From Haladaptatus sp. ZSTT2 (GTDB lineage Archaea > Halobacteriota > Halobacteria > Halobacteriales > Halococcaceae), in assembly GCF_037081775.1 (NCBI RefSeq), contig NZ_JBAMHQ010000001.1:124001-188000 (forward strand): DNA of 64,000 bases, written 5' to 3'. Below, piece by piece: positions 10,077 through 47,926 of this stretch. Under the pieces are notes generated by a model. The model saw only the letters and a list, made by a program, of their open reading frames with translations. It did not search any database and was not told where the DNA came from. Position 1 is the first letter of the stretch; each line of letters begins with the position of its first letter. The translations under genes were made by a program, and so were the position numbers.

Positions 10077-10571
10077 TCAGTCAGACTGAATCTTGTTCTC
10101 TTCTTCGCTCAGCTTTCCCGGCGACTGAGCCGTCATCGGCTCGTCGAAGCCGGTTGGTGCAAGGGTTGGTTCGCAGATGATTTTCTCGCGGCCCAGACGA
10201 AATCGGTTGAGCGATTTTTCGTCTTCCATGTCTTGGAGCAACCGACTCACGGTCGCATCAGACCAGCCAACGAGACTTGCGAGTTCTTTCTGTCGCATTC
10301 GCCCGTCGTTTTCGTTGACCATCTCGAGCACCATCTCTTCTGGCGTCATTCCGGTTTTCACGACAAAATCCGCTTTCGAGTGTTCATAGGTGTAATCGAT
10401 GAACTCCTGTGTTGCGGATTTTTCGGCCCCGGATTCCCCCCCTTCGGTCCCATCCAACTCACTCGCCGCTATACTTCCGTCAGTGTCGTCTGCGCCAATC
10501 CCAAGAACGTCACGCAGACGCACCAGTAACGCCTGCAATGGAGTATCTTCGGATTGTTCCTTCGTATCCAT
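10077..10571 (-). CDS. Winged-helix regulator with DUF7343-type HTH
   Basis: This 164-residue acidic cytoplasmic protein has a low-complexity N-terminal half and a winged-helix domain at about 75-140 (EMVLEMVNENDGRMRQKELASLVGWSDATVSRLLQDMEDE, quoted here as position and family only beyond the key words GRMRQ and GWSDATVS). The same domain forms the cytoplasmic tail of the membrane protein at 23414-24541 (GRMRQ, GWSKSKVS, GREN), so the two regulators are related. The ATG at 10571 starts a clean coding sequence; upstream codons are not coding-like. It converges on the Bat-like gene. I believe the domain is DUF7343, from memory. Confidence 0.75.
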   Translation of the reverse strand: MDTKEQSEDTPLQALLVRLRDVLGIGADDTDGSIAASELDGTEGGESGAEKSATQEFIDYTYEHSKADFVVKTGMTPEEMVLEMVNENDGRMRQKELASLVGWSDATVSRLLQDMEDEKSLNRFRLGREKIICEPTLAPTGFDEPMTAQSPGKLSEEENKIQSD

Positions 10572-10893
10572 CTCAACTCGTGGTATTACATCGACCAAAC
10601 AGATACTCCCTGCCCCTAAACAATTGGGGCGTGGCGGTCGCTTTGGAGGGTGCATCGTGGCACAGTCTGTTGATTTGTGCCCTTTTGCCCCTCACCAATG
10701 AGCATCCCAGTGGGTCACGGCGCGGAATTTATGTCAGATGGATGTATGGATTGGTGTGTTGGAGGGCAGATGGCGCTTGGCCGGAACCAGCCAGCGCCAA
10801 CGCCCACTACTCAGTTATACTCAGAACCAGCACATACGGACATTCCCTAACTGGTCGGGGTTTCTCGAAACACATGGGGAAAGGGGGTGGTCC
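10572..10893. other. Intergenic region with hairpin, no gene seen
   Basis: No convincing coding sequence lies in these 322 nt. They hold the upstream region of the winged-helix regulator (minus strand). The right half holds the 3' flank of the APH-like gene. At 10771-10799 a stem TGGCGCT/AGCGCCA continues with GGC/GCC after one bulged base, around an 8-nt loop. It lies about 95 nt past the APH-like stop codon and may mark transcript end or RNA processing. A small CCCC...GGGG hairpin occurs near 10614-10630. Confidence 0.35.
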
Positions 10894-34284: not shown

Positions 34285-35226
34285 TTAGAAGAAGAAAACC
34301 ACAACAGAGAGTGACAGCGCCATGATGAAATATTCGAAATCACGCACCATCTCTAAGTGAGAGAGAGTCACGTCTGTGCCAAGCGACGTGGTGATGCAAA
34401 GCGAGTAGACGATTGCTGGAATGAGCGCGAGGCAGTGGAGCGGGGAAAACACGCCGAGCATGCTCGCACCGGCGATGAGACACAGCGAAAGGGTGTCGAG
34501 TCCGTAGAGCACCAGCTGCGTGCGTTTGACGCCAACGAGCACCGGAAGCGTCGTGATGCCTTCACGGCGGTCGCCCTCTGCGTCTCGCACGTTCAACACC
34601 TCTCCGGCGATGAACGTACGGATGAAGAAAAAGCCGAACACGAGCAGGCTCGCGGTCGTCATTGCTTTCCCGGCGAATGCGAGGGGGAGATAGGCAACGG
34701 GCACGGCCCACGAAGCGGCCACGAACGACGTATTCACCAAGAAAATATCTTTGAGGCGATCAGCCTCGAAGACGGGAAGCCACGACTCGCTGTACAGAAT
34801 CCCACTCACACCGGGAAAGAGTGTAAGTAAGACTGCCTCAATCCCACCGAAAAACGAGAGGAAAAGTGCGAGGAGGTACGCCCCGGCAGACAACGCGATG
34901 AACAGCCGTTTTTTTGGTTTGATGAACGCGACTCGGTCGGGATTGTTGATCGCATCTTCATTTAAATCTGTCAATTTATTGTGTGAGTAAACGGTAAAAG
35001 AAACGAGAAACGCGATGAGCACGGCGGGGTTCAAGGAGAGCGAAAGGAGGGTTGCAACCACGTAAATTTTCGTCGCCCCGACGAGGCCGAGAAAGAGGGT
35101 CCCGTGGACCACGACATTGTAGAGCTGTGTTTTGGTTTCTCCGTACGATTCTGGTGCCTTGATTGCGGTGCCAACGTTGTGCAATCCGGTGCCAACTTTG
35201 GTCGCCGCGTCGTTTCGAATCGACAT
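34285..35226 (-). CDS. UbiA-family prenyltransferase
   Basis: This 313-residue integral membrane protein has about eight or nine hydrophobic segments and both UbiA aspartate motifs: NKLTDLNED in the first half and NVRDAEGDRREGITTLP in the second. It should transfer an isoprenoid chain from its diphosphate to an acceptor in the membrane (quinone, lipid or chlorin). The gene is less GC-rich than its neighbours and has AT-rich flanks, hinting at transfer. An SD-like GGATGGA lies just before the ATG. The acceptor cannot be deduced, as no quinone or carotenoid genes are adjacent. Confidence 0.87.
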   Translation of the reverse strand: MSIRNDAATKVGTGLHNVGTAIKAPESYGETKTQLYNVVVHGTLFLGLVGATKIYVVATLLSLSLNPAVLIAFLVSFTVYSHNKLTDLNEDAINNPDRVAFIKPKKRLFIALSAGAYLLALFLSFFGGIEAVLLTLFPGVSGILYSESWLPVFEADRLKDIFLVNTSFVAASWAVPVAYLPLAFAGKAMTTASLLVFGFFFIRTFIAGEVLNVRDAEGDRREGITTLPVLVGVKRTQLVLYGLDTLSLCLIAGASMLGVFSPLHCLALIPAIVYSLCITTSLGTDVTLSHLEMVRDFEYFIMALSLSVVVFFF

Positions 35227-36781: not shown

Positions 36782-37558
36782 ATGGACGCCGTTATGGAGC
36801 AATTCGATTTGACCGGGCGTGTCGCAGTCGTAACGGGCGGGAGCCGCGGAATTGGCCGCGCAATCGCCCTCGGCCTCGCAGACGCGGGCGCGGCCGTCGT
36901 GCCCGCAGCGCGCACCGAAGACGACGTGGCAAACGTGGCCCAGGAAATCAGAGACCGGGGTGGCGAGGCGCTCGCGGCGACGGTCGACGTGACCGACGAA
37001 GCCGACATCCGCGCGCTGATGGAGACGGCCGCAGCCGAGTTCGGCGGCATCGACTGCGTCGTGAACAACGCGGGCGTGAATCCGGGGAGCGCCCTCGGTG
37101 AACCCGAGCACATCGAAGCGGACGGCCTCGATTTCGTCATTGACGTGAACCTCCGCGGCGCGTTTCTCTGTACGAAAGCCGCAGCCGAGTACCTCCACGA
37201 GAGCGACGGCGGGTCCGTCATCAACGTCGCGAGCGTTGGCGGCTTAGTGGGCCTCCCGCGCCAACACCCCTACGTCGCCTCCAAACACGGCCTCGTGGGA
37301 ATCACGAAGAGCATGGCTTTAGACTGGGCACCGACGGTGCGGGTGAACGCCATCGCACCCGGCTACGTCGATACCGACCTCACAGAGGGCGTCACAGGCA
37401 ACGACAAACTCGCCCAATCCATCCGCGACCGAACACCGCTTGACCGATTTGCCGACCCAGAAGAACTGGCAGGGCCGGCCGTGTTCCTCGCCAGTCGCGC
37501 CGCGTCCTACGTGACCGGCGAGTGCCTCGCCGTCGATGGGGGTTGGACGGCGCGATAG
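36782..37558 (+). CDS. Short-chain dehydrogenase/reductase (glucose-1-dehydrogenase/FabG type)
   Basis: This 258-residue classical SDR has the cofactor loop TGGSRGIGRAIA, NNAGVNPG, and the catalytic Ser in VINVASVGG with YVASK (Tyr-x3-Lys). It ends with the family's C-terminal FLASRAASYVTGECLAVDGG block. An alternative start is the ATG at 36794. It lies 51 nt before the enoyl-CoA hydratase gene on the same strand, so a role in acyl-CoA or hydroxy-ketone metabolism is plausible. Substrate is not known. Confidence 0.9.
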   Translation: MDAVMEQFDLTGRVAVVTGGSRGIGRAIALGLADAGAAVVPAARTEDDVANVAQEIRDRGGEALAATVDVTDEADIRALMETAAAEFGGIDCVVNNAGVNPGSALGEPEHIEADGLDFVIDVNLRGAFLCTKAAAEYLHESDGGSVINVASVGGLVGLPRQHPYVASKHGLVGITKSMALDWAPTVRVNAIAPGYVDTDLTEGVTGNDKLAQSIRDRTPLDRFADPEELAGPAVFLASRAASYVTGECLAVDGGWTAR

Positions 37559-37609: not shown

Positions 37610-38401
37610 ATGGCGGATGCAGTCTTGCTCGACATCGACGCGGGAATCGCGACCATCACGCTGAATCGCCCCAACGTGCGAAACGCCCTCACGCACGAAG
37701 TTTCTGCGGGGCTTCTCGACGCGCTCTCTGAAATCGAAGACAGCGACGCGCGCTGTGTCATCATCGAAGGCGCGGAGGGTGCGTTCTCCGCGGGCGGCGA
37801 CATCAACGCGATGATGAAGGGGCTCGAAGGCGAGTACTCGCTCCCCGAACGCGAGCAACTCATCGTCCAGCGCACCTCGCGCGCCGTCGTGCGCGTGGCC
37901 GAGTTCCACTTGCCAACAATCGCCAAAATCGATGGCGTGGCGTTCGGCGCGGGCGCGAACCTCGCCATCGCCTGCGATATCTTACTCGCCACCGAGGACT
38001 CGAAGATTAGCTTCGGCTTCCGGCAGGTCGGCCTCACCGTGGACTCTGGCACCTCGTATTTCCTGCCGCGCATCGTCGGGGAAAACACGGCGAAAGAACT
38101 CGTGTTCACCGGCGAACTCGTCGACGCAGCCCGCGCGGAGTCACTTGGCCTGTTCAACCAGGTCTACAGCGAAGACGAATTCGAGGCGGCAGTCGAGCAG
38201 TTCGTTGAGAAAATCGCCACTGGGCCGACGGTCGCCCTGCGCGCCTCCAAACGGCTCATCCGCCAAGGAATGGAGCAGTCGCTCGACCAAGCCGTCACGA
38301 ACGAAGCGTCGGCACAGGTGATGTGTTTCGCCACCGACGACCACGTCGAAGGCGCGACCGCGTTCATGGAAAAGCGCGCCCCCGAATTCACCGGCGAATG
38401 A
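37610..38401 (+). CDS. Enoyl-CoA hydratase/isomerase (PaaG-like)
   Basis: This 263-residue crotonase-fold protein has oxyanion-hole segments (SAGGDINAM and KIDGVAFGAGANLAIACDI). The segment GLTVDSGTSYFLPRIVG is like that of PaaG-type isomerases/hydratases (Asp in place of one of the two hydratase Glu). It acts on CoA-linked enoyl chains in the cytoplasm. Position between SDR and R2lox genes, close to acyl-CoA dehydrogenases, supports a beta-oxidation-type role. The ATG at 37610 is the family start. Confidence 0.9.
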   Translation: MADAVLLDIDAGIATITLNRPNVRNALTHEVSAGLLDALSEIEDSDARCVIIEGAEGAFSAGGDINAMMKGLEGEYSLPEREQLIVQRTSRAVVRVAEFHLPTIAKIDGVAFGAGANLAIACDILLATEDSKISFGFRQVGLTVDSGTSYFLPRIVGENTAKELVFTGELVDAARAESLGLFNQVYSEDEFEAAVEQFVEKIATGPTVALRASKRLIRQGMEQSLDQAVTNEASAQVMCFATDDHVEGATAFMEKRAPEFTGE

Positions 38402-38463: not shown

Positions 38464-39360
38464 ATGCATCTTGATTCGACCCAACCCGCCCTTCTCGACC
38501 GTGAAGCGCGGTCGTTTCGCTACTATCGCAACGCAGTGTCGCGTCATTGGGACCCGTCGGACATCGACCTGATTGCCGACCGCGAAGCGCTCTGTGAGAT
38601 GGAGCCACCGGTGTTCGACAGTCTTCGTGGCGCGCTCGCCAAGTTCGGCGCGGGCGAGCAGGCAGTCACGACCGACCTCGCCCCACTCGCGGTCGTCCTC
38701 AAACGACCGGAAGACCAGGCGTTCATCACGACCCAGCTCTACGAAGAAGCAAAGCACACCGACTTTTTCGACCGCTACTGGCGCGAAGTGGTGAACGAGG
38801 CAGAGGCAGAACGCGGTGAACCGCAAACCTCGCCACAGGCAGACCGCTGGTACGTCCCCGAATACATCGAACTGTTCGACCGCACCGAAGCGGCGATGAC
38901 ACGCCTCCTCTCAGAAGATACGCTTGAGACGCGGGCGAACGCCTACTGTCACTACCATCTCGTCGTGGAGGGTATCCTCGCACAGACCGCCTACTACGGT
39001 CTCCAGCAAGCCTACGGGCCGGACACCTACGCTGCCCTGCCGACTCTCCCGGGACTCACCACTGGCCTTGCCAAAATCCGCGGCGACGAAGGCCGCCACG
39101 TCGGGTTCGGGATGGCGAAGCTGAAAGCCCTCGTCACAGAGGGGGTCGCCCCATCGTTCCTCCACGAGACGGTCGGCGACCTCTTGCCGCTCGTAAACGC
39201 CATCACGACCGACGGGCTTCGGAGTCGAGAAGGCCTTCCCGGACCGGACAGCGCAGACCTCACCGCATATGCCGCGCGCAAACACACAGAGCGCATGACT
39301 CAAATCGTCGATGGCGACCACGAGATTCCGGACGTTGAGACGTTGACCGCACTCGACTAA
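38464..39360 (+). CDS. R2-like ligand-binding oxidase (R2lox-type)
   Basis: This 298-residue ferritin-like di-metal protein is related to ribonucleotide reductase R2. Six ligands are placed as Glu65, Glu95, His98, Glu169, Glu209 and His212 (EEAKH and GDEGRH words). Val68 lies three residues after Glu65, and Tyr164 lies five before Glu169. These are the spacings of the Val-Tyr pair that forms the ether cross-link in R2lox, as I recall Val71/Tyr162 of the mycobacterial enzyme. R2lox binds a long-chain acid and assembles a Mn/Fe site. No large ribonucleotide reductase subunit is nearby. The true substrate is unknown; neighbours suggest acyl-chain oxidation. Confidence 0.87.
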   Translation: MHLDSTQPALLDREARSFRYYRNAVSRHWDPSDIDLIADREALCEMEPPVFDSLRGALAKFGAGEQAVTTDLAPLAVVLKRPEDQAFITTQLYEEAKHTDFFDRYWREVVNEAEAERGEPQTSPQADRWYVPEYIELFDRTEAAMTRLLSEDTLETRANAYCHYHLVVEGILAQTAYYGLQQAYGPDTYAALPTLPGLTTGLAKIRGDEGRHVGFGMAKLKALVTEGVAPSFLHETVGDLLPLVNAITTDGLRSREGLPGPDSADLTAYAARKHTERMTQIVDGDHEIPDVETLTALD

Positions 39361-39412: not shown

Positions 39413-40552
39413 ATGTCCTTCAGTCTCACCGCAGAGCAAGAGGCAATCCGACAGGCGGTACGCGAGTTTGGCGAGGCAGAAATCCGCCCCGTCGCCCGCG
39501 AATACGACGAGTCGCGCGAGTATCCCGCGGCCATCCGTAAGAAAGCCGCGGCGTACGATTTCGTCGCGCCGAACATCCCCGAAACGTACGGCGGTGCAGG
39601 CCTCGATTTACTCGCTGTCGCCGTCATCACCGAAGAACTCTGGCGAGCCGACGCCGGAATCGGGAGCGCCATCTCCAGTGCCGGATTCGGCACGTCCATG
39701 CTCATCAAATACGGCGACGAGTGGATGAAAGAGGAGTGGCTCCCGAAAATCGCCGCCGGAGAGGCGGTCTCTGCGAGCGCCATCTCCGAGCCAGCCCACG
39801 GCTCGAACGTCGCCGGGATGGAGACACAAGCCGTCCAAGAAGGCGACGAGTGGGTTATCAATGGCACCAAGATGTGGATTACGAACGGGAACGTCGCGGA
39901 CGTGGCAATCGTGATGGCGAAAACCGACCCCGACGCGGGCCATCGCGGCATCACCGCCTTCCTCGTCCCCACCGATTCGCCGGGTTTAACGGCGCACAAA
40001 ATCGACAACAAACTCGGTATCCACGCCTCAGACCTCGCCGAACTCACCTTCGACGACCTGCGGATTCCGGAAGCGAACGTCGTCGGTGAGGTGGACAAGG
40101 GCTTCTACCAGCTCATGAACTTCTTCGCCCACGGGCGCGTCAGCGTCGCTTCGCAGGCGCTTGGCGTCGCACAAGCCGCGGTCGATGAAGCCATCTCCTA
40201 CGCCGGAGAGCGCGAACAGTTCGGCAAGCCAATCGCGGAGTTCCAAGCGATTCGCCACAAGATTGCAGACATGGCGACGAACGTCGAAGCCGCGCGGTCG
40301 CTCAACTATCGCGCGGCGACTGCGGTCGAATCGGGCGACGACGACCTCGCCGCGAAGTTCGCATCGATGGCGAAACTGTTCGCAAGCGAGCAGGCGGTTC
40401 GCGTCGCAGACGAGGGCTTGCAGGTCCACGGCGGGGCTGGCTTCGTCACCGACCACCCTGCAGAGCGCTTCTACCGCGACGCACGGATTACGAAAATCTA
40501 CGAAGGCACCTCGGAGATTCAGAAAAACATCATCGCAGACCGACTGCTCTGA
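39413..40552 (+). CDS. Acyl-CoA dehydrogenase
   Basis: This 379-residue flavoenzyme introduces the 2,3-double bond of acyl-CoA. The N-terminal helical domain starts FSLTAEQEAIRQAVREFG. The FAD-contacting segments are SASAISEPAHGSN and MWITNGNVADV. The catalytic Glu lies in KIYEGTSEIQ near the C-terminus. It is full length and intact. A palindromic operator candidate precedes it, and it converges on the 3-hydroxyacyl-CoA dehydrogenase gene, with 10 nt between stops. Chain-length preference is unknown. Confidence 0.93.
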   Translation: MSFSLTAEQEAIRQAVREFGEAEIRPVAREYDESREYPAAIRKKAAAYDFVAPNIPETYGGAGLDLLAVAVITEELWRADAGIGSAISSAGFGTSMLIKYGDEWMKEEWLPKIAAGEAVSASAISEPAHGSNVAGMETQAVQEGDEWVINGTKMWITNGNVADVAIVMAKTDPDAGHRGITAFLVPTDSPGLTAHKIDNKLGIHASDLAELTFDDLRIPEANVVGEVDKGFYQLMNFFAHGRVSVASQALGVAQAAVDEAISYAGEREQFGKPIAEFQAIRHKIADMATNVEAARSLNYRAATAVESGDDDLAAKFASMAKLFASEQAVRVADEGLQVHGGAGFVTDHPAERFYRDARITKIYEGTSEIQKNIIADRLL

Positions 40553-40562
40553 GCCGGTCGAG

Positions 40563-41738
40563 TCAGTCGTAGGTGTAGAAGCCTTCGCCGGCGGCTTTGC
40601 CGGTCTTTCCGTCTTCGACGAGCGAGACGAGATACGGGCTTGGCTCAAAGCGATCTGCGTCCGTGCGCTCGTAGTGGTCGCGAAGCGAATCGAGCACCAC
40701 GTCGAGGCCGATTTCGTCGGCTCTGGCACACGGTCCTTCGGGGAAGCCCGCACCGAGTTTCATCCCCGTATCAATCTCGTTTGGGATGGAGACGGCTTGG
40801 TCTACGAGTTTCGCCGCCTCGTTTATCATCCGCGCTTCGATGCGCAGAGTGTCCACGTCGCCAGACACGTCGTCTTCGGTGTAGTCTGCGCCGCCGTTCT
40901 CGTAGTCGTACCAGCCCTTCCCTGATTTTCTGCCGTACTCCTCTGCGTCCACGCGTTCTTGCATGGCCGGAGCGATTGGCTTCCCCGCTTCCTCTCGCAC
41001 GCTATGGGAAATGTCGATGCCGGTCATATCAGAGAGTTCGAACGGTCCCATCGGGTAGCCCCGCTCGTACACCATCGTCGCGTCGATGTCGCGGACGGTT
41101 CCCGCATCCTCTGAGACCATCCACGCAGGTTCGTCGAGAAACGGCCCGAGTACGGAGTTCACGACGAAGCCGTTCACGTCCTTACGAACGTAGATGGGCG
41201 TCTTGTCGATAGATTCGACAAAGTCGGCGGCCGCGGTCGCGGTGTCCTCGCTCGTCTCCTCGCCGTAGATAACCTCCACGAGCGGCATTTTCACCGGTGG
41301 GTTGAAAAAGTGTAAACCGACCACTCGTGAGGGATTGTCGACCACCTTCGCAATCTGCGTAATCGACAGCGACGAGGTGTTCGTTGCCAGAATCGCGTCG
41401 GCTGGCGCGTACTCGGTGAGGTCTGTAAAGATATCTTCCTTTATCGACAGCCGCTCCGGTGCGGCTTCGATGACGAGGTCTGCCTCTGCGACGGCTTTCT
41501 CGATATCGACGGCGAGGTCGATGCGGTCGAGAATGTCTGCGGCTGATTCGTCGAGTTTCCCCTTCGATTCGAGCTTTTCGAGGCTCCACTGAATCTGGCC
41601 GTGGCCCTTCTCTACGTACTCGCGCTCGATGTCGCGGAGCGTCACGTCGTAACCCGCGATGGCCGTCACCTCCGCGATGCCGTGGCCCATGTTTCCTGCG
41701 CCAAGCACTGTCACTCGCTGTATCCCATCTACGGTCAT
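40563..41738 (-). CDS. 3-hydroxyacyl-CoA dehydrogenase
   Basis: This 391-residue enzyme oxidises 3-hydroxyacyl-CoA with NAD. The Rossmann loop is GAGNMGHGIAEV, the catalytic His lies in VGLHFFNPPVKMPLVEV, and NGFVVNSVLGPFL begins the helical domain. A second C-terminal helical repeat (about 295-391, INEAAKLVDQAV and GPCARADEIGLD) gives the longer form without a fused hydratase. The start ATG at 41738 is 17 nt after a GTTAACTAGTTTGC site resembling the operator at 52384-52399. It is divergent in orientation from the acyl-CoA dehydrogenase, within the acyl-CoA district. Confidence 0.93.
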   Translation of the reverse strand: MTVDGIQRVTVLGAGNMGHGIAEVTAIAGYDVTLRDIEREYVEKGHGQIQWSLEKLESKGKLDESAADILDRIDLAVDIEKAVAEADLVIEAAPERLSIKEDIFTDLTEYAPADAILATNTSSLSITQIAKVVDNPSRVVGLHFFNPPVKMPLVEVIYGEETSEDTATAAADFVESIDKTPIYVRKDVNGFVVNSVLGPFLDEPAWMVSEDAGTVRDIDATMVYERGYPMGPFELSDMTGIDISHSVREEAGKPIAPAMQERVDAEEYGRKSGKGWYDYENGGADYTEDDVSGDVDTLRIEARMINEAAKLVDQAVSIPNEIDTGMKLGAGFPEGPCARADEIGLDVVLDSLRDHYERTDADRFEPSPYLVSLVEDGKTGKAAGEGFYTYD

Positions 41739-41812: not shown

Positions 41813-42883
41813 TCAGAGCGACTCTTTGCCGTCGATGATGCGCTGGGCGCGGTCGGTTAACTGTTGCACCTGCGTCTCCATCTGTGGGTAGAGGTCGTCG
41901 TCGCTGTTGCCTTCGAGATAGCGCCGATAGAACATCTCACCAAGCCCGATGAGTTTGAACACCGCGAGCGTCCGGTAGAAGCGCTCGTGGACGAACTCAC
42001 GGCCTGTCTGTTCCTCGTAGCGGTCAACGAGGTCTTGGCGACTCGGGTAGCCCTCGCGCTCCATGAACCGCGCCATCAGGTCGGGGACGGCAGGCGGTTC
42101 GTCGTCTACGTCGCGCCAGTAGGCGAGCATCCAGCCGAGGTCACAGAGCGGGTCACCGAGCGTCGAGAGTTCCCAGTCGAACACACCGACGATTTCGGGA
42201 GGCGTCCCCGGCCCAAACATGACGTTGTCGAGTTTGTAGTCGCCGTGGACGAGCGTGTGTTCGTGGCTCTCGGGCGTGTTCTCGACCAGCCAGTCGTACA
42301 CTGCTTCGACGCCTTCGACAGTGCGCTCTTCTTCCGTGACTTCGCTCGCCCAGTCGAACTGCTTTTTCCAGCGGCTGACCTGCCGCTCGGTGTAGCCCTC
42401 CGGATAGCCGAACTCACCGAGACCGACGGCCTCGTAGTCCGTCTCGTGAATCTCTGCGAGCGCATCGACGAGCTGGATACCGATTTGCTCGCGCATTTCG
42501 GGGGTGGCAAATCGCTCGGGTTCGTCTCGGCGCAGTACGTCTCCCGCCTCTTTTTCCATCACGTAGAAGTCACAGCCGAGAATCGAGTGGTCGTCCGTGC
42601 CGAGGATGGTGCGTGGCACGCGGACGGGCGTGTCCTGCAGGGCGTTCATCACCTTGTACTCCCGGAGCACGTCGTGTGCTGACTCTGCAGTTTCACCCGG
42701 TGGCGGGCGTCGGATGACGAGTTCTAAGTCCCCCCACGTCACGAACAGCGTCTCGTTCGAGTGGCCCTCTTTGTGATGGCGGACGTCGTACTCATCTGCC
42801 GCGCCCAACTCGGCTTCAAGGAAGGCTGCGAGTTTCTCCTCGTCTACGATACGCGAGAAGTACTCCTCTGAATGGTCGCTCAC
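41813..42883 (-). CDS. ACAD10/11- or LvaA-like acyl kinase (APH fold)
   Basis: This protein of about 356 residues has the APH kinase fold and strongly resembles the kinase part of ACAD10/ACAD11 and bacterial LvaA. Signature words are EGHSNETLFV, LVIRRPPPGETAESAHDVLREYKVM (region 57-81), the catalytic HGDYKLDNVMF and the metal-binding FDWELSTLGDPLCDLGW. The family phosphorylates the 4-hydroxy group of hydroxyacyl-CoA. The start is taken as GTG 42883, preceded by GAGGTG at 6 nt; a GTG three codons earlier is possible. The gene for its usual partner, an acyl-CoA dehydrogenase with the ADGPDEVH motif, is not in this window. Confidence 0.85.
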   Translation of the reverse strand: MSDHSEEYFSRIVDEEKLAAFLEAELGAADEYDVRHHKEGHSNETLFVTWGDLELVIRRPPPGETAESAHDVLREYKVMNALQDTPVRVPRTILGTDDHSILGCDFYVMEKEAGDVLRRDEPERFATPEMREQIGIQLVDALAEIHETDYEAVGLGEFGYPEGYTERQVSRWKKQFDWASEVTEEERTVEGVEAVYDWLVENTPESHEHTLVHGDYKLDNVMFGPGTPPEIVGVFDWELSTLGDPLCDLGWMLAYWRDVDDEPPAVPDLMARFMEREGYPSRQDLVDRYEEQTGREFVHERFYRTLAVFKLIGLGEMFYRRYLEGNSDDDLYPQMETQVQQLTDRAQRIIDGKESL

Positions 42884-43018
42884 AGTGCCCACCTCAGAAA
42901 GCTAATCTCTAACATGGTCGCGGCTACAACCTCCGGCTACGAAAACCTGCGGGTATCGGCGGCTGTTGACGTACACAAATCGGGATACGCCTTTTGTCTC
43001 GCACGACAAAGTGACCCC

Positions 43019-45040: not shown

Positions 45041-45472
45041 ATGCGTTCGTCTATCCACGTCGTCGAGTCCGACGCGGAGTATGAAGATGCTCTCTCCGTT
45101 CGATTCCGGGTTTTCGTAGAGGAGCAAGGTGTACCAGAAGAGTTGGAGGTTGACGAGTACGAAAACGATTGCGTCCACTTCGTCGCCTATATCGACGATG
45201 ACGCCGTCGGGGCTGCGCGGCTTCGCCCGCTCGACGATGAACGGGCGAAAATAGAGCGCGTGGCCGTGCTCGAACCGTATCGCGGTAACGGACTCGGCTT
45301 CGAACTCATGGCGTGTGTCGAGTCGGAGGCACACGCACGCGGCTACGACCACCTCATTCTCAACTCGCAAGTACACGCGAAGTCGTTCTACGAGCGGCTT
45401 GGCTACCTTCAACAGGGAGACGAGTTCGAAGAGGCGGGCATCCCGCACGTCACGATGGACAAGCTGTTTTAG
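45041..45472 (+). CDS. GNAT-family N-acetyltransferase (ElaA-like)
   Basis: This 143-residue acetyltransferase has the acetyl-CoA pyrophosphate-binding loop EPYRGNGLGFELM, preceded by IERVAVL. A C-terminal YERLGYLQQGDEFEEAGIPHVTM resembles ElaA/YjcF-type GNATs. Substrate is unknown. A TTTATC box about 27 nt before the ATG suggests a leaderless transcript. The stop overlaps the convergent acyl-CoA dehydrogenase stop by 4 nt. Confidence 0.9.
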   Translation: MRSSIHVVESDAEYEDALSVRFRVFVEEQGVPEELEVDEYENDCVHFVAYIDDDAVGAARLRPLDDERAKIERVAVLEPYRGNGLGFELMACVESEAHARGYDHLILNSQVHAKSFYERLGYLQQGDEFEEAGIPHVTMDKLF

Positions 45473-46686
45473 ACGCCGAGTTGCTTCGCAATCGTATTTA
45501 GCTGAATTTCGTCAGTGCCTTCCACGATGCGAAGGATGCGCGCGAGATGGAGGTGGTCCATGAACGGATTTTCCTCCGCGACGCCGTTGCCGCCGTGTAT
45601 CTGCACCGTGTCGTCTGCGAGTTGCCAGTAGGCGTCGGTGGCGAGCCACTTGAACGCAGACGACGCCTGTATCGCATCCTCTCCACTGTCCATCAGCCAC
45701 GCACACCGGAGACCTGCCGCGTCTGCAGCATCGACCCGCGCCTTTCCGCGGGCGATTTTCCCAGAGATTTGCTGAAACTTCCCGATGGGTTGGCCGAACG
45801 CTTCGCGCTGGTTCGCGTAGGACACGCACTCGTCTACGAGTTGTTCTGCATAACCCACGGCCTCTGCACCCAATTCGAGACGACCGAGTGAGAGAAAGTC
45901 CATCGCGGAGTAGAACGCTGCATCCACCTCGCCAAGCACGCGCGAGTCGGGGACGCGAACCTCATCGAAGACGAGTTCTGCCTGCATCCCCTCCATGCCG
46001 ACGGCGTTGTTCATCGCGCCGAGTTCGTACTCGTCGGCTTCTACGATGAAACACGTAATGCCGCCGTAGCGGCCCGCTTTTTCTTGCGGCGTCGTGCGAG
46101 CGAACACCTGCACGAAATCTGCGTACGGCGCGTTCGTAATCCACTGCTTTCGCCCGGTAATCACCCACTCGTCACCCTCCTTTCGCGCCGTCGTCTGCAT
46201 GTTCGGGGAATCAGAGCCTGCACCGGGTTCGGTCTGGGCGAACGCCGTCGATTGCTCGCCGCGGACGACGGGTTTCAGGTAGGTCTCGGTCTGCTCCGTA
46301 TTCGCCTGCAACAAGAGCGGTTTTGGCCCCTCCGGCCCGGCAAGGATGTGGCGTGTGAGGCCGGTTCCTTTGGCCGCGACGTGCGTTTTCGCGCGATACC
46401 ACGTCACCGTCGAGACACCCTCTCCGCCGACGCCCTCGGGCATGTTCATGGCGTAAAAGCCCGCGTCTGCACTCTTCTTACGGATTTTCTCAATAGCGTC
46501 GAGCACGTCGGAAACGAACCGGCCATCCGTTTCGTGCCGCAGCCGTGGATTCTCCAACACCTCGCCCAACTCGGCTTCGAGCGGTCTGACTTCGCGTTCG
46601 ACAAACTGGTCGAGACTCTGGCGGATGAGCCGTGTCTCTTCGCCCACCCCAAATGAAACCCCGCCGTGGTTGTTTTCTGCAGGCAT
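45469..46686 (-). CDS. Acyl-CoA dehydrogenase (second paralogue)
   Basis: This 405-residue flavoenzyme has the segments FAQTEPGAGSDSPNM and QWITNAPYADF, with a catalytic Glu in LRIVEGTDEIQLN. It is somewhat longer at the N-terminus than the dehydrogenase at 39413 and only moderately similar, so the two should differ in acyl substrate. The C-terminal motif is EGTDEIQ, not the ADGPDEVH typical of ACAD10/11 and LvaC, so it is not the obvious partner of the nearby kinase. The ATG at 46686 is used. It is divergent from the CaiB-like gene. Confidence 0.92.
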   Translation of the reverse strand: MPAENNHGGVSFGVGEETRLIRQSLDQFVEREVRPLEAELGEVLENPRLRHETDGRFVSDVLDAIEKIRKKSADAGFYAMNMPEGVGGEGVSTVTWYRAKTHVAAKGTGLTRHILAGPEGPKPLLLQANTEQTETYLKPVVRGEQSTAFAQTEPGAGSDSPNMQTTARKEGDEWVITGRKQWITNAPYADFVQVFARTTPQEKAGRYGGITCFIVEADEYELGAMNNAVGMEGMQAELVFDEVRVPDSRVLGEVDAAFYSAMDFLSLGRLELGAEAVGYAEQLVDECVSYANQREAFGQPIGKFQQISGKIARGKARVDAADAAGLRCAWLMDSGEDAIQASSAFKWLATDAYWQLADDTVQIHGGNGVAEENPFMDHLHLARILRIVEGTDEIQLNTIAKQLGV

Positions 46687-46765
46687 GACGCTACCAACAC
46701 CGGTCAAGAGGTTAACGTTCGGGGTCAGCATCGAACATTAAGTAGCCGCCGTGTGAGATGCGACC

Positions 46766-47926
46766 ATGAATCTCTCTGGTATCCGCGTCCTCGATTTGAC
46801 TCGGTTGCTTCCCGGTCCCTACGCCACGCAGCTCCTCGCTGATCTCGGTGCGGATGTCATCAAAGTCGAAGACACCGGCGCGGGAGACTACGCGCGAGCC
46901 ATGCCGCCGCTCACCGACGAGGGCATCGGCGCGGTGTTCGACGGCGTGAATCGCGGCAAGCGAAGCGTCGCCATCAACCTGAAAGCGGACGCCGGGCGGG
47001 AGGCGTTTTACAAACTCGTCGAACACGCGGATGTGGTGTTCGAGAGCTTTCGCCCGGGCGTCACAGACCGGTTAGGTATCGACTACGACACGCTCACCGA
47101 GTACAATCCGAAACTCGTCTACTGCTCGCTCTCTGGCTTCGGGCAGACCGGCCCGCTCGCCGACGCGGTTGGCCACGACCTGAACTATATCGGCCTCGCG
47201 GGCCTGCTCGACATGACTCGCGAAGACGAGACTGCAAAGCCTCAAATTCCGGGCTATCCGACCGCAGACATGGCCGGCGGCCTCTTCTGTGCGTTCTCCA
47301 TCGTGAGCGGCTTGCTCTCACGAGAACTCGGCAGCGGCGGGAGCTACGTCGACGTGTCGATGACCGACGTCGTCCTCTCGTTTTCCCACGCGCTCGCCGC
47401 GCCCGCCTTCGACGGCGAGACGCCGCGCCCGGGTGAAACGTCGCTCACCGGTGTGTATCCGTGGTACGACGTGTACGCCGCGAAAGACGGCTACGTGACG
47501 CTCGCCGCCCTCGAACCGAAGTTCTGGGAAGCCTTCTGTGAAGCCGTCGGTAGACCAGACCTCGTTGCTGTTCACGGCACCACCGACCCGGCAGAACGCG
47601 ACGCCCTGCGCGAGGAACTCTCGAACCTCTTTGCCGGGAAGACGCGCGACGAGTGGGTGGAGGAACTCGCGGACGTGGACGCCGCCTTCGGCGGGGTGTA
47701 CACGCTCTCAGAAGCTCTTGACCACCCGCAACTCGCGTCTCGCGGCATCATCCGACGACCCGAGGATGGTCGCCCGCGCATCGGCTTTCCGGCGGTCACC
47801 GACCGCACCCGAGACACGGACGAATCGCTCCCAGAACAGGGCGAACACACCGAAGCTGTGTTGCGAGACGTGGGTCTCTCGCCGTTCAACATCGACACCC
47901 TGCGCCGCGACGGCGTCATCGACTGA
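46766..47926 (+). CDS. CaiB/BaiF-family protein, alpha-methylacyl-CoA racemase-like
   Basis: This 386-residue type III CoA-transferase-fold protein begins LSGIRVLDLTRLLPGPYATQLLADLGADVIKVE (residues 3-35, described by position). The segment GHDLNYIGLAGLL and the Asp in PTADMAGGLF match the catalytic His and Asp regions of alpha-methylacyl-CoA racemase better than formyl-CoA transferase. It would then epimerise 2-methyl-branched acyl-CoA so that dehydrogenases can act. It shares a divergent promoter region with an acyl-CoA dehydrogenase gene. A CoA-transferase role is not excluded. Confidence 0.87.
   Translation: MNLSGIRVLDLTRLLPGPYATQLLADLGADVIKVEDTGAGDYARAMPPLTDEGIGAVFDGVNRGKRSVAINLKADAGREAFYKLVEHADVVFESFRPGVTDRLGIDYDTLTEYNPKLVYCSLSGFGQTGPLADAVGHDLNYIGLAGLLDMTREDETAKPQIPGYPTADMAGGLFCAFSIVSGLLSRELGSGGSYVDVSMTDVVLSFSHALAAPAFDGETPRPGETSLTGVYPWYDVYAAKDGYVTLAALEPKFWEAFCEAVGRPDLVAVHGTTDPAERDALREELSNLFAGKTRDEWVEELADVDAAFGGVYTLSEALDHPQLASRGIIRRPEDGRPRIGFPAVTDRTRDTDESLPEQGEHTEAVLRDVGLSPFNIDTLRRDGVID

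Follow-up and report, generated by a model that had tools for sequence, protein, structure and literature searches.

The R2-like ligand-binding oxidases (R2lox) bind long-chain fatty acids and are capable of two-electron oxidations. One member of the family, GkR2loxI of Geobacillus kaustophilus, was reported in 2024 to be an alkane hydroxylase encoded in a cluster with beta-oxidation genes (PMC10867098). The evidence for an alkane role is modest, because the assay followed substrate loss in crude lysate and a ligand double mutant retained most of the activity (PMC10867098). As cited in the same paper, an R2lox gene of the haloarchaeon Halorientalis is induced by hexadecane. An earlier reading of the locus described here, made from the sequence only, had held that R2lox proteins have no established substrate; that statement needs updating in light of the GkR2loxI report, with its crude-lysate, substrate-loss data. 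Haloarchaea hold numerous copies of R2lox, and the gene contexts of these copies fall into several distinct kinds. The presence of R2lox in haloarchaea is itself not new, having been reported for Natronomonas pharaonis in 2013 (PMC3824934).

Several plasmid-borne R2lox genes have informative neighbors. A Rhodococcus plasmid copy adjoins genes for a ferredoxin, an FAD reductase and an alcohol dehydrogenase, with an aldehyde dehydrogenase and an acyl-CoA ligase near, and a Mycobacterium plasmid copy adjoins an alcohol dehydrogenase and an acyl-CoA ligase. On plasmid pHME505 of Haloferax mediterranei (L139, 7980-13602), the R2lox gene E6P09_RS15840 is followed by genes for a quinone oxidoreductase, an acyl carrier protein (ACP), a beta-ketoacyl-ACP synthase, a holo-ACP synthase, a malonyltransferase and FabG, with phaC upstream. 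From its gene content, this haloarchaeal locus is predicted to be a fatty-acid or polyketide cluster of bacterial type. The H. mediterranei protein has G and F at two of the positions that are diagnostic for R2lox (see below).

The window analyzed here is a stretch of 64 kb from Haladaptatus sp. ZSTT2, and the gene of interest is the R2lox gene listed in Table 1. The only Pfam match to its product was Ribonuc_red_sm, slightly below the cut-off. Five NCBIfam models matched, all named R2-like ligand-binding oxidase (best E 1e-37), and no other NCBIfam model did; all five hits scored below the curated cut-offs. The score against NF006200 was 130.1 bits, compared to a curated cut-off of 194, and the NCBIfam R2lox cut-offs are naming thresholds for subgroups rather than a family-defining property. 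The closest solved structures by sequence were the GkR2loxI entries (PDB 4hr0, E 6e-26), followed by the R2lox proteins of Sulfolobus, Saccharopolyspora and Mycobacterium tuberculosis.

The sequence-only reading had proposed an R2lox-type oxidase with all six di-metal ligands and with Val68 and Tyr164 at the spacing of the ether cross-link, and alignment to structurally known R2lox proteins bore out each of these points. The six ligands, the first of which is Glu and not Asp, align respectively with E69, E102, H105, E167, E202 and H205 of GkR2loxI, while V68 and Y164 fall on the cross-link positions V72 and Y162. The spacing is that published for GkR2loxI: V68 lies three residues beyond E65 (as V72 does from E69), and E169 lies five beyond Y164 (as E167 does from Y162). 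R2lox proteins are further distinguished by a specific set of Gly, Pro, Lys, Ala, Tyr and Arg residues (PMC3824934), and all six are found in the window protein as G64, P74, K97, A173, Y177 and R211. An AlphaFold model built from a 36-sequence alignment (pLDDT 87, pTM 0.86) matched solved R2lox chains with Z scores of 28.5-31.4, and the best true R2 with a Z of 26.0. On every defining feature of sequence and fold tested, the family membership is secure: the reading frame encodes a genuine R2lox, a new member of an already known family that is common in haloarchaea. A recent foreign origin of the gene was rejected, because its composition (GC 62%, GC3 73%) resembles that of its neighbors.

Of 391 Halobacteria genomes, 136 carry R2lox homologs, and multiple copies per genome are frequent. 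The six ligands and the Val/Tyr pair are invariant columns of the 36-sequence alignment, and the eight residues read E-V-E-H-Y-E-E-H in all full-length homologs from about 100 haloarchaeal loci, so the match in the window protein is not a matter of chance. The haloarchaeal proteins, including the H. mediterranei copy, group in a single clade that excludes the actinobacterial proteins and both of those from Geobacillus; an R2lox encoded on a Halocatena salina plasmid lies outside this clade, beside GkR2loxII. In one Halobacteriales metagenome-assembled genome (L097, 9962-10927) the R2lox reading frame is in two pieces, representing either a broken copy or an assembly error. A second, weaker R2-like match is present in genome G355 (L134).

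Table 1. Genes at and around the R2lox locus (window coordinates)
Feature	Coordinates	Strand	Remarks
SDR oxidoreductase (FabG-like)	36782..37558	+	collinear in G070 and G355
PaaG-like crotonase	37610..38401	+	N117 and Q139 at the crotonase Glu positions; PaaG-type Asp D145 kept
R2lox (R2-like ligand-binding oxidase)	38464..39360	+	298 aa; ligands E65, E95, H98, E169, E209, H212; cross-link pair V68/Y164
acyl-CoA dehydrogenase	39413..40552	+	canonical catalytic Glu in IYEGTSEIQ
3-hydroxyacyl-CoA dehydrogenase (HCDH)	40563..41738	-	convergent with the acyl-CoA dehydrogenase
APH-fold kinase, related to the ACAD11 kinase domain (4-hydroxyacyl-CoA kinase type)	41813..42892	-	PDB 8v3v, E 5e-47; 9o56, E 3e-67
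second acyl-CoA dehydrogenase	45469..46731	-	37% identical to the first
family III CoA-transferase (CaiB/BaiF)	46766..47926	+	same family as the gene adjoining R2lox in the Natrinema clade

The window R2lox gene lies after the SDR and crotonase genes and before an acyl-CoA dehydrogenase gene, all on the forward strand, with the HCDH and kinase genes following on the reverse strand (Table 1). The position between a crotonase and an acyl-CoA dehydrogenase is as originally described, but the label of enoyl-CoA hydratase given to the crotonase does not hold. Both hydratase glutamates are absent from this protein, at positions that we take from established knowledge of crotonases, and the PaaG-type aspartate is retained; the same is true of the aligned crotonases of the window's clade. 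The original description also placed a PaaG-like enzyme and an HCDH nearby. The HCDH is indeed there, on the opposite strand, but the PaaG-like gene is not a separate one: it is the supposed hydratase itself, the sole crotonase found in the 64-kb window. No ferredoxin or reductase gene adjoins the window R2lox. The crotonase, R2lox and dehydrogenase genes each have their own conserved TATA-like element upstream and so do not demonstrably form a single operon. The idea of one conserved operon is unsupported for this reason and because, as described below, the block exists without R2lox in a related genome.

Mapping of gene neighborhoods across haloarchaea revealed that the acyl-CoA setting of R2lox is real and partly conserved, but not obligatory. 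The R2lox genes of the window's clade show a clade-wide linkage to the PaaG-like crotonase, which lies at most a few genes upstream in at least 12 loci. An acyl-CoA dehydrogenase gene directly follows R2lox in seven loci (the window, G355, G374, two in Halorarius and two in Halomarina). Within three genes of haloarchaeal R2lox, 21 of 589 genes encode crotonases, compared to 3 of 689 at a distance of six or more; after collapsing at 70% R2lox identity, the counts are 7 of 180 near and 0 of 241 far (p 0.002). In the Natrinema clade, R2lox occurs with a true enoyl-CoA hydratase that retains both glutamates, a family III CoA-transferase and another acyl-CoA dehydrogenase, and this association is independent of the one in the window's clade. 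The proposed link with acyl-CoA genes is thus upheld in part, by the crotonase enrichment and by these two clades, but it is limited: an acyl-CoA gene of any kind occurs within three genes of R2lox at no more than 13 of the 30 de-replicated loci, and the crotonase-dehydrogenase pair also occurs without R2lox. R2lox genes of other clades lack acyl-CoA neighbors and adjoin CDC48 and a GHMP kinase, histidine biosynthesis genes, Bat-type regulators or a PhaC-like hydrolase. A Bat-type HTH_10 regulator gene directly adjoins R2lox in 13 loci (including L109, 261-908, L035 and L039). The order in Halococcus is a Bat-type HTH_10 regulator, then R2lox, then a PhaC-like alpha/beta hydrolase.

A direct comparison with and without R2lox is provided by a genome of the same genus, G070. 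The SDR, crotonase, dehydrogenase, HCDH, kinase, Sir2, cupin and second dehydrogenase genes are collinear there with those of the window, at 86-97% identity (91-97% for the first five), and only R2lox is missing. At the empty site, the crotonase and dehydrogenase genes are separated by about 100 bp (L141, 8941-9042). No R2lox remnant was found in this gap, where alignment is limited to the stretch immediately ahead of the dehydrogenase start. R2lox is not required by the block, which is otherwise intact in G070. The absence is more simply explained by gene loss in G070, since more distant relatives carry R2lox in the same slot; alternatively, R2lox may have inserted repeatedly into the slot between crotonase and dehydrogenase. 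By coordinates, at least 11 genomes, G070 included, have the crotonase-dehydrogenase pair no more than 150 bp apart and lack R2lox there, and five of these were read directly. Three further loci (L142, L144 and L145) have a gap of about 1-2.5 kb between crotonase and dehydrogenase, with no R2lox match among those listed in these genomes. In G355, a relative from the same genus, the gap between crotonase and R2lox is about 450 bp (L111, about 10360-10817) versus 62 bp in the window, and possibly contains the remnant of an insertion element.

What might the window protein do? The reading with a somewhat better than even chance of being right is that this authentic R2lox is an O2-dependent oxidase of an aliphatic chain, with a product that enters the adjacent beta-oxidation enzymes. 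The ferritin-fold protein would use a two-metal site, either Mn/Fe or Fe/Fe, to activate O2, and the V68-Y164 ether link would be expected to form. A long-chain carboxylate-type ligand would be bound, and the aliphatic substrate, for example a fatty acid, an alkane or an acyl derivative, would undergo a two-electron, O2-dependent oxidation such as hydroxylation. The oxidized chain could then pass to the neighboring beta-oxidation enzymes; both this direction of the pathway and a hand-over to the crotonase are presumed. Oxidation of an aliphatic chain by O2 is favored by the combination of the ligand and chemistry known for R2lox, the GkR2loxI report, the hexadecane induction and the plasmid R2lox contexts. 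The crotonase and dehydrogenase linkages in the window's clade and the separate association in the Natrinema clade also speak for this reading. Against it stand the R2lox-free block of G070, the other crotonase-dehydrogenase pairs that lack R2lox, the separate TATA-like elements, the clades with no acyl-CoA neighbors, the lack of an adjoining ferredoxin or reductase gene and the weaknesses of the published alkane assay. The suggestion that the chain is isoprenoid in this organism found no such footing, in that no conserved isoprenoid gene was found near R2lox in the haloarchaeal loci. One candidate, a UbiA-type gene at 34285-35226, was rejected; it is collinear within the genus, lies beyond a photolyase gene and is present in G070, where R2lox is absent.

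The empty site in G070 and the 11 or more genomes with an uninterrupted crotonase-dehydrogenase pair are also what one would expect if R2lox were simply inserted into (or lost from) a conserved acyl-CoA pair, having a different substrate or a role in stress or metal metabolism. The separate TATA-like elements argue in the same direction, as do the unrelated contexts of R2lox in other clades, among them the 13 loci with Bat-type regulators. The linkage to crotonase, however, has been maintained over several genera of the window's clade and is enriched overall, and we consider a function unrelated to the neighbors a real possibility but a doubtful one.

Two more specific schemes would tie R2lox to particular neighbors, either as an oxidize-then-isomerize system with the PaaG-like crotonase acting on acyl-CoA or as a source of 4-hydroxylated chains that are handled by the ACAD11-type kinase; taken together, they are unlikely to be correct, but if true they would give R2lox a CoA-ester substrate and open a new way into beta-oxidation. 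The former would have R2lox epoxidize or hydroxylate an acyl-CoA and the PaaG-like neighbor isomerize the product. PaaA is likewise a ferritin-fold di-metal oxygenase, and the crotonases of the window's clade show the PaaG-type pattern, lacking both hydratase glutamates and keeping the aspartate in all aligned members. Nevertheless, PaaG-like enzymes also serve as delta3,delta2-enoyl-CoA isomerases, R2lox is not known to accept CoA esters, and the crotonase-dehydrogenase pair occurs without R2lox. In addition, a PaaA is encoded at another site of the window genome, and the 8 kb around it hold no crotonase gene, so the window crotonase could serve the PaaA pathway. On these grounds the epoxidize-and-isomerize scheme is improbable, and the narrower idea that the window R2lox is itself a phenylacetyl-CoA epoxidase was rejected given the separate PaaA.

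In the second scheme, R2lox would make 4-hydroxyacyl chains, and the kinase would phosphorylate them prior to elimination to the enoyl-CoA. The window kinase does resemble the ACAD11 kinase domain, which acts on 4-hydroxyacyl-CoA in a route known from mammals and Pseudomonas (PMC11342911). However, its gene is on the opposite strand and is kept in G070 without R2lox, and its linkage to R2lox was seen only within the genus (in G355), making this scheme very improbable. As a separate observation, the kinase gene of the window is close to two acyl-CoA dehydrogenase genes, which suggests 4-hydroxy acid catabolism in haloarchaea.

Finally, the gene almost certainly does not encode the R2 subunit of a class I ribonucleotide reductase: it is the sole PF00268 match in a genome where a single R1-type gene has a long open frame and R2 is otherwise absent, and the families are distantly related, but this identity is rejected by the full set of R2lox-specific residues and by the better scores of R2lox over R2 structures, and the gene is missing from G070.

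The window strain and G070 constitute a natural pair, in which a collinear acyl-CoA block differs by R2lox, and this pair is a useful new piece. Together with the tractable H. mediterranei R2lox beside fatty-acid synthesis genes, it opens the question of the R2lox substrate to genetics.

Among known systems, GkR2loxI shares with the window protein the ligands, the Val/Tyr pair, the diagnostic residues, the fold (PDB 4hr0, Z 30.6) and a location in a beta-oxidation gene cluster. It differs in belonging to a separate clade, with about 29% identity, and its cluster includes alcohol and aldehyde dehydrogenase genes, neither of which adjoins the window R2lox. The M. tuberculosis protein Rv0233 (PDB 3ee4 and 4ac8) has the same fold as the window model (Z 30.6-31.4), but is only 24-25% identical and falls in the bacterial clade. 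The PaaABCE epoxidase with its PaaG isomerase also combines a di-metal ferritin-fold oxygenase with a PaaG-type crotonase; the resemblance to the window pair is one of analogy only, because the oxygenases are of different families and the window genome has a separate PaaA. The R2lox of Natronomonas and its relatives are haloarchaeal proteins like that of the window, in gene contexts that differ by clade.
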